DNA from: Ignavibacteriota bacterium | Lineage (GTDB): Bacteria > Bacteroidota > Ignavibacteria > Ignavibacteriales > Melioribacteraceae | NCBI GenBank assembly: GCA_002698995.1 | Contig: PAAX01000032.1 | Span: forward strand, 1 to 64,000 | Length of the DNA stretch: 64,000 bases | Reading direction: 5' to 3' | Notes under the pieces: generated by a model | Told to the model about the DNA's origin: nothing | The model's database searches: none | What the model saw: the letters and a program-made list of their open reading frames with translations, nothing else | In this document: in pieces, positions 32,219 to 38,765 of the stretch | Layout of the letters: each line of letters starts with the position of its first letter | Numbering within the stretch: the stretch's first letter is position 1 | Translations under genes and position numbers: made by a program

Positions 32219-34402
32219 ATGATCAGTAATCCTTTACAAAATTCAATTCAATATATTAAGTCAGTCGGACCCAAACGGGCTGAGTCTTTTCGAAAAATAG
32301 GTCTTAATACTATTAAGGATTTGCTCTTCTATTTTCCCTACAAACATTTGGACCGGTCTTCAATCCTAAACACATCTGATGTTGTAAAAATTGCAAGCGG
32401 TGGTTTTGATGGTGAAGTAACAATTCTTGGTAAAGTTATTGAGTCCGAATTAATTCGTTACGGTAAAAAACAACTCTTAAAAGTGCAGTTTAAAGATCAG
32501 CATGGTTACTTTGAATGCGTATGGTTTCAAGGTATAAAATTTTTTAAAGATACATTTCATTCAGGTGATACTTATGCTATTTCTTCTAAACCGGTTTTAA
32601 CACGTTACGGTCATCTACAATTTGCTCATCCCGACTTTGATAAAATCTCAAAGGAAGAAAGCGATGAATTTATTAACACAGGTAAAATCATACCTTATTA
32701 TACTCTACCAAAAGCTCTTAAGGATAAACATATTGGCGACTTAAGCATTAGGAAAATTGTAAGAAATGCAGTTGAAAGCTATGCTGAATTATTAGAAGAA
32801 ACTTTACCTGAAGATATAGTTCATTCTAATAAACTCTTCAATTTGAGTGAAGCAGTTAAAAGTATCCATTTCCCGGAATCATTAGAAAATCTGAACAAAG
32901 CCTTTCTCAGATTTAAATATGAAGAATTGTTCTACCTAGAAATTTTGGTTGCATTAAGAAAAAGCAAGATAAAAGATTTTAATAAAGGAATTAGTTTTGT
33001 AACTAATAAGGAAAGAATAAAAGAGTTTTTAGATAATCTTCCATTCGATTTGACTGATGATCAAATAAAAGTTCTGCATGAAATTCGTTTAGATATGGAA
33101 TCTCCAAAACCAATGAACAGACTTTTACAAGGAGACGTTGGAAGCGGAAAAACTATTGTAGCTTTAATTGCAATGCTCCTTTGCGTTAATCATGGTTATC
33201 AAGCAGTTCTTATGGTTCCAACAGAAATTCTTGCCGACCAGCACTTTAAGAATATAACAAAGCTTTTAGACTTTAATCAAGATTATAAATTATCTTTATT
33301 AATCGGCGGACAATCAAAGAAACAGAGAGAAAAGAACTTAGCAGATATTTCAAGTGGTGATTCCCAAATAATTATTGGTACTCATGCTCTATTTGAAGAT
33401 ATAATTCAGTTTAACAAATTAGGTCTGGTTATTATTGATGAACAACATCGTTTTGGTGTTGCTCAAAGAGCGAAATTAATAGATAAAGGAATTCTTCCGG
33501 ATGTTCTGGTAATGACTGCTACACCAATTCCAAGAACTTTAAGCATGACTGTTTACGGAGATTTAGATGTATCTGTAATTCTTAACAAACCTAAAAACAG
33601 AAAAGAGATTAAAACAATTGTAAGAAGTGAAAGTAAACTGCCGGAAATATATAACTTTATAAAAACAAAAGCTTTTGAAGGGAATCAATCATTTATTGTT
33701 TACCCTTTAGTTGAAGAATCTGAAAAGCTGGATTTAAAATCTGTGCTGGAAGAATATGAAGCACTAAAATCCACTTACTTTAGTGATATAAAAGTTGGAT
33801 TAATACATGGTAAAATGAAATGGCAGCAGAAAGAAGAAGTAATGCTTGATTTTGCAGATAAAAAGTATGACGTTTTATTTTCAACTACTGTGATAGAAGT
33901 AGGAATAGATATTCCCAATGCTAATATAATCGTAATCAATGATGCATTCAGATTCGGACTTTCTCAACTTCACCAGCTTAGAGGAAGAGTTGGAAGAGGA
34001 AATGAACAAGCATACTGCATTCTTATTGCCAAAGAAGGAATGGCTGCTAAATCTTCAAAAATGAATTTCAATTTTGAATACCTTTCCAAACAGCAGATTG
34101 AGAAAAATAAATCAGCTATAAGATTAAACTCGATGATAAAATATTCAAGCGGTTTTGATTTATCTGAAATTGATTTGAAGTTGAGAGGTCCAGGTGATTT
34201 GTTTGGAACAAAACAAAGCGGTTTACCTGAACTAAAGTTTGTTAGCATAACTGAGGACACCGAAATAATAATCAAAGCGAAAGAAGATGCCTTTAAAATC
34301 ATTCATAACGATCCAACTCTTAACAATCATTCTAACCAATTAATCAAAAAAAATCTGCTTAAAAACTTCAAAGAAAATCTGCAGTATTATAACATTGCTT
34401 AA
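32219..34402 (+). CDS. recG: ATP-dependent DNA helicase RecG
   Basis: 727 residues. Remodels stalled forks and Holliday junctions. The N-terminal wedge/OB domain (about 1-260) precedes a superfamily 2 motor: GDVGSGKTIVA (Walker A), DEQHRFGVAQR, MTATPIPRTLSM and QLRGRVGRG with the C-terminal KLRGPGDLFGTKQSG. ATG at 32219; a TTG one codon earlier is not needed. Confidence 0.95.
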   Translation: MISNPLQNSIQYIKSVGPKRAESFRKIGLNTIKDLLFYFPYKHLDRSSILNTSDVVKIASGGFDGEVTILGKVIESELIRYGKKQLLKVQFKDQHGYFECVWFQGIKFFKDTFHSGDTYAISSKPVLTRYGHLQFAHPDFDKISKEESDEFINTGKIIPYYTLPKALKDKHIGDLSIRKIVRNAVESYAELLEETLPEDIVHSNKLFNLSEAVKSIHFPESLENLNKAFLRFKYEELFYLEILVALRKSKIKDFNKGISFVTNKERIKEFLDNLPFDLTDDQIKVLHEIRLDMESPKPMNRLLQGDVGSGKTIVALIAMLLCVNHGYQAVLMVPTEILADQHFKNITKLLDFNQDYKLSLLIGGQSKKQREKNLADISSGDSQIIIGTHALFEDIIQFNKLGLVIIDEQHRFGVAQRAKLIDKGILPDVLVMTATPIPRTLSMTVYGDLDVSVILNKPKNRKEIKTIVRSESKLPEIYNFIKTKAFEGNQSFIVYPLVEESEKLDLKSVLEEYEALKSTYFSDIKVGLIHGKMKWQQKEEVMLDFADKKYDVLFSTTVIEVGIDIPNANIIVINDAFRFGLSQLHQLRGRVGRGNEQAYCILIAKEGMAAKSSKMNFNFEYLSKQQIEKNKSAIRLNSMIKYSSGFDLSEIDLKLRGPGDLFGTKQSGLPELKFVSITEDTEIIIKAKEDAFKIIHNDPTLNNHSNQLIKKNLLKNFKENLQYYNIA

Positions 34403-34475
34403 TGATTTTTATAATGAATTTGTTAATAAATCTTGCATATAATTTTATAATAATTATATTGCAGTAAATTTTTTT

Positions 34476-34492
34476 AAAGGATTAATAAAATT
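34476..34492 (+). promoter_or_regulatory. Ribosome site and ATT start of the first ATP-grasp gene
   Basis: TTTAAAGG ends at 34480, nine bases before an ATT at 34490. The frame is closed by TAA at 34475-34477, and no ATG, GTG or TTG exists in frame between that stop and 34550. ATT at 34490 (or 34493) is therefore the best start that keeps the first strand of the fold. Confidence 0.5.
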
Positions 34493-35548
34493 ATTAACGC
34501 TGTTCCAAAAAGAAGATTAAACGTTGTACTAACATTTAATCAAAAGCCTATGAATACTGGCTCTCCCACAGGTACCCCTAATTCAAAATTTTCTGACGAT
34601 ACTTATGCAGAGTGGGATTCTTTTGAAACAATTGATGCAATTAGAGAAGCAATTTCTATTTACCATAATGTTACATTAATTGAAGCCGATGAAAAATGTT
34701 TTAACAGATTTATTGAAGTAAAACCTGATATAGTTTTTAATATTTCCGAAGGTAAAAATGGTAGAAGCAGAGAAGCTCAAATTCCTGCTATATTAGAAAT
34801 GCTTAACATTCCATATACCGGTTCCGATCCTTGGACATTGACAACTTGCTTAGACAAACAACGAACAAAAGAATTTTTAACATATCATAAAATACCTACA
34901 CCAAAATTTTTAGTAGTTAATAGTGATATTGACTTAGAGAACTTCAGTCTTACATTTCCTGTAATTATTAAACCCATCGCTGAAGGTTCTAGCAAAGGAA
35001 TTTTTAATTCATCTATCTTTAGTGATTTTGCAACACTAAAGACTTCGGTTTTAGAAAAAATCAAAGAATATAATCAGCCTTTTTTAATTGAAGAGTTTTT
35101 AGATGGAAGAGAGTTTACGGTTGGCATATTAGGAAATTCTCCAAATGCTGTTGTTCTTCCGATAGTAGAAATCAATTTTGAAAGTCTGCCAAGCGAATTA
35201 AATCCAATTTATTCTTATGAAGCAAAATGGATTTATGATACAACTGAAAATCCTTTGGATATTTTTAGCTGTCCTGCTAATCTTACAAACGAACTAAGTG
35301 ATGCAATTAAGAAAATTGCTCTTCGTTCTTATAATTTATTTAATTGTAAAGATTGGTGCCGTATTGACATAAGACTTGATAAAAATAACATCCCGAATGT
35401 TATTGAGTTAAATCCTTTACCAGGGGTTCTACCCGATCCGAAGGATAATTCTTGTCTTCCAAAAGCAGCTAGAACATTCGGACTTTCATATAATGAATTA
35501 ATTAATTCTGTTTTAAACTTTGCTATAGAACGAAACAAATTAGCTTAA
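34490..35548 (+). CDS. ATP-grasp ligase, D-Ala-D-Ala ligase-like, first copy
   Basis: 332 residues from the first ATG (34550), 352 from the proposed ATT start. The upstream codons read RRLNVVLTFNQKP, which matches the first strand of the fold (KNKILVCYNDP in the next gene). ATP-grasp features: VIKPIAEGSSKGIF, LIEEFLDGREFTVGIL, DWCRIDIRLD and VIELNPLPGV, with metal-binding D/E/N. The family joins a carboxylate to an amine with ATP. The usual peptidoglycan ligase lacks a second copy and radical SAM partner, so the substrate is probably another amino acid or peptide. One base separates it from its paralogue. Confidence 0.8.
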   Translation: MINAVPKRRLNVVLTFNQKPMNTGSPTGTPNSKFSDDTYAEWDSFETIDAIREAISIYHNVTLIEADEKCFNRFIEVKPDIVFNISEGKNGRSREAQIPAILEMLNIPYTGSDPWTLTTCLDKQRTKEFLTYHKIPTPKFLVVNSDIDLENFSLTFPVIIKPIAEGSSKGIFNSSIFSDFATLKTSVLEKIKEYNQPFLIEEFLDGREFTVGILGNSPNAVVLPIVEINFESLPSELNPIYSYEAKWIYDTTENPLDIFSCPANLTNELSDAIKKIALRSYNLFNCKDWCRIDIRLDKNNIPNVIELNPLPGVLPDPKDNSCLPKAARTFGLSYNELINSVLNFAIERNKLA

Positions 35549-35549
35549 A

Positions 35550-36608
35550 ATGAAAAATAAAATATTAGTCTGTTATAACGATCCGGTTTCGTTATATGAT
35601 AACTACTTGGGAAAGGAATTATCATCTAATGAAGAGTTTACAGATTTATCTGAAAAAGGTTTTTCTCAGCAGATAGATTTTATCAAAAACGAACTTGAGA
35701 AGAATTTTTCAGAAGTTTATACTCTAGGATTTAACAGAGATATTTTATCAATCATTAATAGTATTAAAAATATTAATCCCGATGTAATTGTAAACTTTGT
35801 TGAATCAATTGATGGGGATGCGGAGTATGAAAGTCATGTTACCGGACTTTACGAATTATTAGGAATTAGATACACCGGTAATTACGGATTTTGTTTGGCT
35901 AATTGTTTAAGTAAAACAAGAACTAAGCAAATTTTGTCATCACACAAAATAAGTACACCTAAGTTTTTAACATTAGCAGTTAATGAAAAGCTAGAAGAAT
36001 CAAAATTGAATATGAGTTTTCCATTAATTGTTAAGTTAGCAAGAGAAGATGCAAGTATTGGAATTTCGGAATTATCTGTAGTTAAAGATTCAGCCGAATT
36101 AAAAAGGCAAATCAACTTCTTAAGAAAAAATTATAAGCAATCGGTAATTATTGAAGAGTACATAGAAGGAAGAGAAATTAATGTTTCTATTCTAGGAGAT
36201 AAGGTTTTACCTTTATCCGAGATTAGATTTGACGGACTTCCGGAAAATTATCCCAAGATTATTACCTATGAAGCAAAATGGTCACCAAATTCAATTTATT
36301 ATAAAAACACAGTTCCCAAATGCCCTGCTGATGTTTCAGATAAGTTGAGAATAAAAATTGAACAAATTGCCTATGAAGCATTTAATGCGTTAGGCTGCAG
36401 AGATTATGCAAGAGTTGATATAAGATTATCAAACAAAAATGTTCCTTATGTTATTGAAGTGAATCCGAATCCGGATATATCGGTTGATTCCGGCTTTGTG
36501 CGTTCTGCATCTTATGCCGGATTAAATTACAGTGATTTATTAAAAACATTAGTTGAATTTGCATTAAACAGAAAAGCATATGATACGACCTTTGCAGTTG
36601 AAGGATAA
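35550..36608 (+). CDS. ATP-grasp ligase, D-Ala-D-Ala ligase-like, second copy
   Basis: 352 residues, paralogous to the preceding gene. VNFVESIDGDAEYESHVTGLYELLG matches the first copy's VFNISEGKNGRSREAQIPAILEML. The ATP-grasp core is IVKLAREDASIGI, IIEEYIEGREINVSIL and YARVDIRLSNKNVPYVIEVNPNPD. Both copies have complete metal-binding residues, so both are probably active with different substrates. The 3' end overlaps the GNAT gene by 29 bases. Confidence 0.8.
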   Translation: MKNKILVCYNDPVSLYDNYLGKELSSNEEFTDLSEKGFSQQIDFIKNELEKNFSEVYTLGFNRDILSIINSIKNINPDVIVNFVESIDGDAEYESHVTGLYELLGIRYTGNYGFCLANCLSKTRTKQILSSHKISTPKFLTLAVNEKLEESKLNMSFPLIVKLAREDASIGISELSVVKDSAELKRQINFLRKNYKQSVIIEEYIEGREINVSILGDKVLPLSEIRFDGLPENYPKIITYEAKWSPNSIYYKNTVPKCPADVSDKLRIKIEQIAYEAFNALGCRDYARVDIRLSNKNVPYVIEVNPNPDISVDSGFVRSASYAGLNYSDLLKTLVEFALNRKAYDTTFAVEG

Positions 36609-37059
36609 AGATACTTTATTCAAAATTATTAATTCAATTAATCTTTTTAGTGAAGATGAAAAAACTGTAGCAAAGGAATTAATTGAAGAGGTTCTTTATA
36701 ATAAGTTTCAAGATTATTATAATGTTTTTGTTTATGAAAATGAAACTGACGGAAAAGTTCATGGTTATCATTGTACCGGTAAAAGATCAATGACAGAAGG
36801 TGTTTATGATATGTACTGGATAGCTGTTGATCCAAATTATCATAACAAAGGAGTTGGTAAGTTATTAATTAATCATGCAGAGAAATTTGTTAAAGATCAA
36901 AATGGGAATTTAATATTGGCTGAAACTTCATCAAAAGACTCGTACATAAATACGAGGTCTTTCTATAAAGCAAATAATTATGAAGTTCTGGCTGAGATAA
37001 AAGATTTTTATAAAAAGGATGACAACCTTATAATATTTGGTAAATATATAAGAATATAA
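36580..37059 (+). CDS. GNAT-family N-acetyltransferase
   Basis: 159 residues. GNAT acetyl-CoA motif: MYWIAVDPNYHNKGVGKLLINHAE (about 78-101), with the C-terminal NTRSFYKANNYEVLAEIKDFY. Typically transfers acetyl from acetyl-CoA to an amine. Located between the ATP-grasp pair and the aminomutase; in archaea and some bacteria an aminomutase gene is paired with an acetyltransferase (AblB) that acetylates beta-lysine, but this protein is shorter than AblB, so identity is not established. Confidence 0.8.
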   Translation: MIRPLQLKDKDTLFKIINSINLFSEDEKTVAKELIEEVLYNKFQDYYNVFVYENETDGKVHGYHCTGKRSMTEGVYDMYWIAVDPNYHNKGVGKLLINHAEKFVKDQNGNLILAETSSKDSYINTRSFYKANNYEVLAEIKDFYKKDDNLIIFGKYIRI

Positions 37060-37070
37060 AGGGCAACTAC

Positions 37071-38237
37071 ATGGAACTTTGGCAACAAATGATCCGAGAC
37101 AGTGTTCATTCAGTAGATCAATTAGTTAAAAAATTTGGTCTAAAGAAAGAAGTAGCTGAACAACTTGATGAATTTTTTCAAGCAAGAATTAATCCATACT
37201 ATCTCAGCTTAATTCGATATCCGGGTGATCCGATTTGGATGCAGTCAGTACCGGATAAAATTGAGTTAGAAGATATGGATGGGCTTGAAGATCCGTTAAA
37301 TGAAGATATGATGAGTCCGGTTCCTAATATCACTCACCGATATCCAGACAGATGCCTATTCCTTGTCACAAGTCAATGCGGTATGTATTGCCGATTCTGC
37401 ACAAGAAAAAGAAAAGTTGGTGATTCCGGTAAAATTTCTATGAAAGAATTGGAATCTGCTTTCAATTATATTGAACAGCATACCGAGATTAGAGATGTAA
37501 TTCTTTCCGGCGGCGATCCTTTAATGCTTACAGATGTAATGTTAGAAAAAATCTTAAGCAGATTAAGAGAAATTAAGCATGTGGAAATTATTAGACTTGG
37601 TACAAAAATGCCCTGCGTACTTCCTCAGCGCATAACTCCTAATTTGGTAGATATGCTTAAGAAGTATCATCCAATTTATATTAACACACACTTTAATCAT
37701 CCTTGGGAAATTACTCCCGAAAGTACTAAAGCCTGTACCATGCTTGCAGATGCCGGCTGTCCGGTTCAAAACCAAGCAGTATTAATGAAAGGTGTTAATG
37801 ACAATGCGGAAATTCTAAAAGAGTTATTCCAGAAACTTCTAAAAATAAGAGTAAAACCTTATTATTTATTTATGGCAGATGAAACTAAAGGTGCTAGTCA
37901 TTTTAGAACTTCTGTTGAAAAAGGTTTGGAAGTAATTGATAAACTAAGAGGACACACATCAGGATTAGCAATTCCTCATTTCGTAATTGATGCACCGGGC
38001 GGCGGTGGAAAAATCCCTTTGCTTCCTAAATATGTCCTTCATCAAGATGATGAAAGAATTATTATGAGAAATTACAAAAATGATATTTATGTTTATCGCA
38101 ATGTGAATGATGAATTAAGTAAGAGCAAAGTTGAGATTGAAGTTGTAAATAATAAGAAGAACGGACATAGTAAAATTAAAGAGCCAAAAAATCTTAAAAA
38201 TATACAAAAAATAGAAGTAGAAGAAATTACGAATTAA
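37071..38237 (+). CDS. KamA-family radical SAM aminomutase (lysine 2,3-aminomutase-like)
   Basis: 388 residues. Uses a 4Fe-4S cluster, S-adenosylmethionine and PLP to move an alpha-amino group to the beta position. Cluster motif CGMYCRFC (CxxxCxxC, about 102-109). The PLP-lysine motif PGGGGK is preceded by VIDA, and MADETKGASHFRT holds the acidic residue before the HFR block. The two Asp residues that bind the lysine substrate in the Clostridium enzyme are both present, favouring lysine over glutamate. A Lys-rich C-terminal tail of about 40 residues is extra. Last gene of the cassette, followed by a terminator. Product predicted: beta-lysine (inference). Confidence 0.85.
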   Translation: MELWQQMIRDSVHSVDQLVKKFGLKKEVAEQLDEFFQARINPYYLSLIRYPGDPIWMQSVPDKIELEDMDGLEDPLNEDMMSPVPNITHRYPDRCLFLVTSQCGMYCRFCTRKRKVGDSGKISMKELESAFNYIEQHTEIRDVILSGGDPLMLTDVMLEKILSRLREIKHVEIIRLGTKMPCVLPQRITPNLVDMLKKYHPIYINTHFNHPWEITPESTKACTMLADAGCPVQNQAVLMKGVNDNAEILKELFQKLLKIRVKPYYLFMADETKGASHFRTSVEKGLEVIDKLRGHTSGLAIPHFVIDAPGGGGKIPLLPKYVLHQDDERIIMRNYKNDIYVYRNVNDELSKSKVEIEVVNNKKNGHSKIKEPKNLKNIQKIEVEEITN

Positions 38238-38241
38238 ATAT

Positions 38242-38270
38242 AGAGGCTGATCTTTCAGCCTCTTCTTATT
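38242..38270 (+). terminator. Bidirectional intrinsic terminator
   Basis: GAGGCTGA, loop TCTT, TCAGCCTC (38242-38261) followed by TTCTTATTT. Lies between kamA-like (plus) and the thioredoxin-like gene (minus). Confidence 0.85.
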
Positions 38271-38765
38271 TTAGTTGTTTAGAATATCAAGTAAATCCAT
38301 TTCCAAAGTTTCAACCGGCGTTTCAATAATTCTTCCTTTTTCACCTTGATCATTAATCAAAATAAATGTTGGGACTAATTCAATATTTTTTGAATCAATA
38401 TTACCGTCAGGTGAATTTTTATCCCTATCAACGGCAATAAGTGGAAGGTTATTTAAATCATAACTTAGCATATCTAGTATTTTCATAAATCTTGGTACTT
38501 CTCTTTTGCTATCGCTGCACCAAGTTCCCAAAACAATTTCAATTTTGTAACTATTTAATCTTTCTCCAATATTGTTTATAACTTCCTCATCCGGTTCATA
38601 GTTTTCAAATTCGGAATTATACCACCAAGCAAAACTTGAATCTTGAAAAGCATCAATATTGCAGTATCCAAGAAGCATCGGTTTTTCAGTTTTAGAATCG
38701 GTAACCATTTTATTTTGCGCAGAAATAGAAATGGAAATAAAAAGAATTACGAGAATTATTTTCAT
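38271..38765 (-). CDS. Secreted thioredoxin-fold protein with single-Cys WCSDS motif
   Basis: 164 residues with signal peptide ending ISAQ (1-17). The thioredoxin-like core contains GTWCSDSKREVPRFMKIL (about 99-116) and a cis-Pro segment VPTFILIND. Where thioredoxins have CxxC this has CSDS, so only the attacking Cys is present. In the Bacteroidota this WCSDS type is common; a disulfide exchange or reducing role outside the cytoplasm is inferred. Last gene of the 16-gene run; its ATG overlaps the nadK stop by one base. Confidence 0.75.
   Translation of the reverse strand: MKIILVILFISISISAQNKMVTDSKTEKPMLLGYCNIDAFQDSSFAWWYNSEFENYEPDEEVINNIGERLNSYKIEIVLGTWCSDSKREVPRFMKILDMLSYDLNNLPLIAVDRDKNSPDGNIDSKNIELVPTFILINDQGEKGRIIETPVETLEMDLLDILNN

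Follow-up and report, generated by a model that had tools for sequence, protein, structure and literature searches.

A conserved four-gene block in the class Ignavibacteria combines two Ddl-like ATP-grasp ligases, an acetyltransferase and a KamA-family aminomutase

Two described systems come closest to the locus analysed here. One is AblA/AblB, the pair responsible in methanogens for the osmolyte N-epsilon-acetyl-beta-lysine, in which, according to the part of the report available to us, the genes of a KamA-family aminomutase and of an acetyltransferase are neighbours in one operon (PMC1224877). The other is pboF-pboG, part of the 16-gene natural-product cluster Pbo of Pseudomonas syringae, where a lysine-2,3-aminomutase-like gene adjoins the gene of an ATP-grasp amino acid ligase, again in one operon, as far as the accessible part of that paper goes (PMC8473136). 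Here we analyse a block of four genes, called A, B, G and K, encoding two ATP-grasp ligases, a GNAT acetyltransferase and a KamA-family enzyme. The block lies in a 64-kb window (the whole stretch of DNA that was analysed, positions 1 to 64,000 of contig PAAX01000032.1) from an Ignavibacteriota bacterium with a genome of 4.23 Mb in 36 contigs. The order on the forward strand of the window is recG, A, B, G, K, a hairpin terminator and then convergent genes, and the features of the block are the following:

34476..34481, + strand: Shine-Dalgarno-like AAAGGA of ligase A (sequence; Shine-Dalgarno scan)
34490..35548, + strand: ligase A, Ddl-type ATP-grasp, probable ATT start at 34490, second ATT at 34493 (Pfam, NCBIfam, model, Foldseek)
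35550..36608, + strand: ligase B, Ddl-type ATP-grasp, paralogue of A (Pfam, NCBIfam, model, Foldseek, tree)
36580..37059, + strand: G, GNAT acetyltransferase, overlapping the last 29 bases of B (Pfam, NCBIfam; nearest structure 2r7h)
37071..38237, + strand: K, KamA-family (lysine-2,3-aminomutase-like) radical SAM enzyme (Pfam, NCBIfam, key residues)
38242..38263, + strand: terminator-like hairpin 3' of K (hairpin and folding computation)

The first-pass annotation had placed four open reading frames at this position and on this strand, with spacings of 1, -29 and 11 bases for A-B, B-G and G-K respectively, and the coordinates confirm it. One point needs correction: there is no NTG start at the N terminus of A (34490-35548), and 34490 is an ATT codon. 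The terminator it had described after the cassette was recovered too: the hairpin at 38242-38263 has 9 pairs, is followed by TCTTATTTTA and sits between convergent genes, and the folding energy of 38236-38285 is -16.4 kcal/mol (z -4.2 against shuffled sequences). A scan of 34300-38400 gave no match in Rfam.

The gene order, which the first-pass annotation had proposed to look for in related genomes, is conserved there. Using K as query on genome contigs we obtained 160 relatives and retained the best 80 by similarity to K, a selection that is unsuited to measuring how often the block is lost. The nearest relatives of the source genome bear the names Melioribacter, Melioribacteraceae and Ignavibacteria. 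A, B, G and K stood in the same order and on one strand in 75 of the 80 loci, therefore the block exceeds chance; in the remaining five (L002, L009, L050, L059 and L077) the end of a contig falls inside the block. Moreover, the overlap between B and G was present in 72 of the 75 loci (median -26, from the BLAST start). Three loci deeper in the class (L085, L087 and L099) have different flanks, without recG upstream, and still keep the four genes together.

Profiles of A, B, G and K were also each run against one set of 247 genomes from the phylum. All four were present in 41 genomes, 35 within the class and 6 outside. Among the class carriers 34 had the whole block, and in the other one (G196) it was distributed over more than one contig, B and G lying about 0.9 kb apart. 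The carriers outside the class were five genomes of one family, f33 (G079, G125, G133, G137 and G237), and G086. In these six genomes the profiles scored 432-454 bits for A, 346-377 for B, 130-150 for G and 482-551 for K, apart from the K gene of G133, which is cut by a contig end and scored 405 bits. No two of the four genes are adjacent in them, the closest being B and K of G079, about 29 kb apart. Beyond the 41 carriers, G weakly matched only two genomes (G087 with 100 bits and G231 with 53 bits), K matched 38 other genomes at 226-455 bits and B matched G152, G005, G162, G227 and G047, the last one having the sole lone pair, A with a B cut at the contig end and neither G nor K.

The four genes are thus gained and lost together, linked or unlinked, and such co-inheritance without linkage argues for a single pathway. 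A conservation of the order merely by general synteny is ruled out by the three loci with changed flanks and by the six genomes outside the class where the four genes are unlinked. The same observations, together with the order in the 75 loci, bear out the earlier claim that these genes act together, and our confidence in a pathway of four cooperating enzymes is high.

We propose that A, B, G and K form one operon for a small-molecule pathway. K would shift the amino group of L-lysine, its presumed substrate, from C2 to C3, giving beta-lysine. G would acetylate an amino group of the beta-lysine unit, probably the epsilon one, whereas A and B would use ATP to convert a carboxylate to its acyl phosphate and link it to the amino groups of two further building blocks, with partners and in an order that are presumed. 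The product would be an acetylated beta-lysine-containing di- or tripeptide, which ordinary peptidases should handle poorly and which might act as a protective or osmotic solute. Judging from the sequences, we give this product a probability of about one half.

Regarding the ligases, both A (114 bits) and B (121 bits) match the Pfam domain Dala_Dala_lig_C (PF07478), and their scores for the RimK domain, the ligase type of LysX/ArgX in the pathway with the LysW amino-group carrier protein, are 19.8 bits for A (cut-off 21) and 34.2 for B, far under their Ddl domain scores. Their predicted structures have a pLDDT (predicted local distance difference test) of 82 and 88 respectively, and for each model the 50 matches listed by Foldseek were all Ddl-family ligases. 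However, both ligases remained below the cut-offs of the Ddl models, with 147.4 (A) and 145.9 bits (B) for TIGR01205 (cut-off 245.65) and 183.5 and 160 bits for NF002378 (cut-off 243). The genome has a separate Ddl (G000:C23, 330 aa) that passes both, with 320.7 and 335.4 bits. This answers the question, raised by the first-pass annotation, of whether the two ligases might be the only Ddl enzymes of the genome, and it rules out A or B as the genome's Ddl.

Compared with that Ddl, A and B retain the ATP lysines, the Arg and Asp of RxD and the E/D-x-N of the Mg site, so they share with Ddl both the fold and the ATP and Mg residues. The substrate pocket is altered: the His of HGxxGEDG is replaced by Glu in 38/38 A and 36/36 B, and the Tyr of KY by Trp (KW) in all 74 A and B proteins. 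The Ser at a further compared site, which we take to hold the second carboxylate in Ddl, is retained in 38/38 A and only 14/36 B. The Ddl fold, with the ATP and Mg residues intact and the pocket changed, suggests that A and B are active-looking ligases with substrates other than those of Ddl. We built a tree of 94 ligases, with A and B from 16 of the 75 loci (L098 was left out), and in this tree the A clade (38 rows, 100/98) and the B clade (46 rows, 100/97) are separate. The relatives from outside the class lie at the clade bases, A of all six genomes in the A clade and B of the four included in the B clade, which indicates that the split between A and B predates the class.

The Ddl fold of both ligases would also suit an attachment of the (beta-)lysine unit to cell wall or lipid, as Ddl and D-Asp ligases act in peptidoglycan. 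We consider this quite unlikely, because the block has no envelope gene, the genome has its own Ddl and the acetylation would block the cross-bridge amine.

A third Ddl-like ligase (G000:C10:29717-30778; L128:7733-8806) branches inside the B clade. It is divergent to a gene that we labelled by eye as a C39-type peptidase, and the pair was found in 7 of the 10 genomes opened.

Regarding the aminomutase, K matches Radical_SAM and the first half of LAM_C in Pfam and belongs to the KamA family (TIGR00238, 313.4 bits, cut-off 199.2). It aligns with the lysine 2,3-aminomutase 2a5h over 341 residues (E 8.7e-123), and this alignment confirmed the earlier description of its motifs: the CxxxCxxC cluster (C103/C107/C110), the PGGGGK motif at 309-314 with the pyridoxal phosphate (PLP) lysine K314, and both lysine-selecting Asp residues. 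Actually, Asp270 and Asp307 of K align with the Asp of YQCD and of VVDAPGGGGK in 2a5h, which we take to be D293 and D330, the pair that binds the epsilon amino group of lysine. In an alignment of 114 KamA proteins, where cassette and other proteins are mixed, the three Cys were kept in 114/114, D307 in 113/114 and D270 in 105/114, the rest being 8 Gln and 1 row cut at this position. D270 and D307 were kept in all the cassette rows, and all 8 Gln rows came from a two-gene ligase-KamA module of other Bacteroidota, described below. Both Asp of K would therefore fit lysine.

Nevertheless, K is under each equivalog cut-off tried, for lysine (AblA, TIGR03820, 466.5 of 525.4 bits) as for glutamate (442 of 650) and arginine (358.5 of 600), which makes lysine a putative substrate only, and the first Asp is Gln in 8/8 of the two-gene-module proteins examined, so the KamA family does change substrate. 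The substrate of K might then be a different amino acid (arginine, ornithine or the end of a dipeptide), with A, B and G building a conjugate of the resulting beta-amino acid. This seems rather unlikely to us, given that the lysine model is the nearest to K and that both Asp are kept in all the cassette rows.

It could also be thought that K is an EpmB-like enzyme that serves to beta-lysylate elongation factor P, a ligase taking over from EpmA. Indeed, K is the sole KamA match in the source genome at E 1e-60, the elongation factor P of the genome (L113:1492-2058) has lysine in PGKGG and we found no EpmA above cut-off in it. However, K is far under the EpmB cut-off (TIGR03821, 242.8 of 369.3 bits) and sits with two small-molecule ligases and a GNAT rather than with efp, and we regard this role as very improbable.

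The acetyltransferase G matches GNAT domains in Pfam. Its closest solved relative is 2r7h (E 3.2e-23), named 'Putative D-alanine N-acetyltransferase' by its depositors, which hints at relatives of G in other phyla. The layout of K beside G resembles that of AblA/AblB in the portion of the report that we could consult (PMC1224877), and K and G might make N-epsilon-acetyl-beta-lysine in a variant of that osmolyte system, the ligases serving another task. Nevertheless, G had no match to the AblB model TIGR03827 (cut-off 205.1 bits) at E 0.001, whereas the same models recognised our positive control, a locus of another Bacteroidota genome (L122) with AblA at 769.4 bits beside AblB at 289.9 bits. 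Together with the score of K under the AblA cut-off, this rules out that A-B-G-K is AblA/AblB itself, as the first-pass annotation had maintained, and the set here includes two ligases. Furthermore, the ligases co-occur with K and G even when unlinked, which a separate task would not explain. We therefore consider the variant system unlikely.

Several points weigh against the acetylated beta-lysine peptide that we favour. The 80 loci were chosen from 160 as the ones most similar to K and all of them lie in or near one class, the genome survey covered one phylum, and the six genomes outside the class represent two lineages only, their K and G having been assigned by profile score and not by tree. 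The substrates of A, B, G and K are all putative, and the Asp pair of K fits other basic amino acids too, arginine included. Finally, we found no transporter, regulator or resistance gene that would mark the product as an osmolyte or an antibiotic.

Regarding the start of ligase A, the ATT at 34490 lies 8 nt after the AAAGGA at 34476-34481. Neither ATG nor GTG nor TTG occurs at the N terminus of the gene, and the ATG at 34550, where the list of open reading frames starts A, would cut off the conserved first strand of the protein. We scanned the window and 70 loci and took, in each, the codon in the best position behind a Shine-Dalgarno-like stretch. Two loci were dropped from the counts of A because the match to A lay on B (L059 and L077), three because they had no A (L002, L009 and L050), and another five were left out of the start-codon count because the frame was open at the contig end (L016, L017, L026, L049 and L074). 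The scan called ATT in 55 loci, ATC in 5, ATA in 4 and NTG in 1, and it left 6 without a call; that is, a start at ATT, ATC or ATA was indicated in 64/71 loci, one of which (L003) also has an ATG. An earlier protein-guided alignment had given, in one column, 46 ATT, 5 ATA and 5 ATC. Furthermore, 21 of the 71 loci have no NTG in the searched 22 codons from the conserved strand, whereas in these 22 codons an NTG was found in 75/75 B, 78/78 G and 80/80 K, and likewise in 62 recG, 39 thio, 46 nadK and 34 gpsA genes. The 64 calls and the 21 loci without any NTG set A apart from all these genes.

Some results speak against an AUU start. The scan is nonspecific when taken alone: it called ATT, ATC or ATA in 6/75 B versus 14 NTG and in 12/78 G versus 8 NTG, with no call for most B and G. 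Besides, 50/71 A loci have some NTG, which in many cases is a TTG coding for the Leu in the first strand, and a TTG start may apply in those loci. Among 19 more distant A genes, 11 had ATG at the first strand, 4 had TTG there or 4 codons before and 4 were missed by the motif. Taking all this together, ligase A seems to begin at AUU, rarely at AUC or AUA, hinting at control of translation initiation, and the dose of ligase A might be held low by this start. It is possible, although doubtful, that the class Ignavibacteria has a so far unseen core metabolite, an acetylated beta-lysine tripeptide made by the quartet, and that the output of the quartet is set by an AUU start of A that initiation factor 3 would discriminate against. 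In E. coli, infC and pcnB are named as the only two genes with such a start in the part of the source at our disposal (PMC9410913), and a conserved AUU start in A would add beside them a natural case of a metabolic gene, kept across many species.

If the proposed pathway is true, a whole class of bacteria, common but little studied, produces a beta-amino-acid conjugate that nobody has sought. The chemistry built on aminomutases, so far one of single acetylated osmolytes, would then extend to the assembly of peptides by ATP-grasp enzymes, and the four defined enzymes of the pathway could be produced and assayed together.

We also searched plasmids and viral contigs. G gave 9 plasmid records, and of the 6 regions opened 5 were annotated, without a nearby ligase or KamA gene, and 1 was unannotated. 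With A and K as plasmid queries we obtained 620 and 137 records respectively, and among six regions opened only a Thioflavicoccus plasmid had both. This region (L107:6691-12172) carries a KamA gene and a Ddl-like ligase gene in convergent orientation, as well as ornithine cyclodeaminase, sbnA-like and diaminobutyrate transaminase genes, and it looks like a small diamino-acid product cluster. No relative of A was found in the viral contigs. In GC-rich genomes, what looked like long fusion proteins with G or A turned out to be overlapping open frames.

Among known enzymes, carnosine synthase (ATP-grasp domain protein 1) is another ATP-grasp enzyme with a beta-amino acid as a building block of its dipeptide product, although its substrates are beta-alanine and histidine. 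In the open-access literature we found no description of the four-gene set, so this much of the first-pass annotation, which had called the pathway undescribed, stands. However, a KamA gene beside an ATP-grasp ligase gene is already described in Pbo, in the only open-access paper found to join an aminomutase with an ATP-grasp enzyme other than by a mention in a reference list, as far as these sources could be consulted (PMC8473136). Pbo differs from our locus in having one ligase, which by description, and not by comparison of sequences, is likened to the L-amino acid ligase of Bacillus licheniformis and not to Ddl, and in having no GNAT in the part of its gene table that was accessible (PMC8473136). 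What is known, as far as our searches go, is thus the pair of genes and not the set of four.

The two-gene module of other Bacteroidota is a further relative. A distant A-type ligase (158-187 bits) was found in 17 other genomes, all 17 with a KamA match, and the ligase and KamA genes were adjacent or within 0.9 kb in 12 of them. Examples are G003, G147, G199, G008, G050, G058, G155 and G195, and the loci L130, L132, L133, L134, L135 and L136; we inspected the layout in seven genomes. This module resembles our block in bringing an A-type ligase and a KamA protein together, whereas it is without G and B and its ligase forms a clade of its own in the tree.

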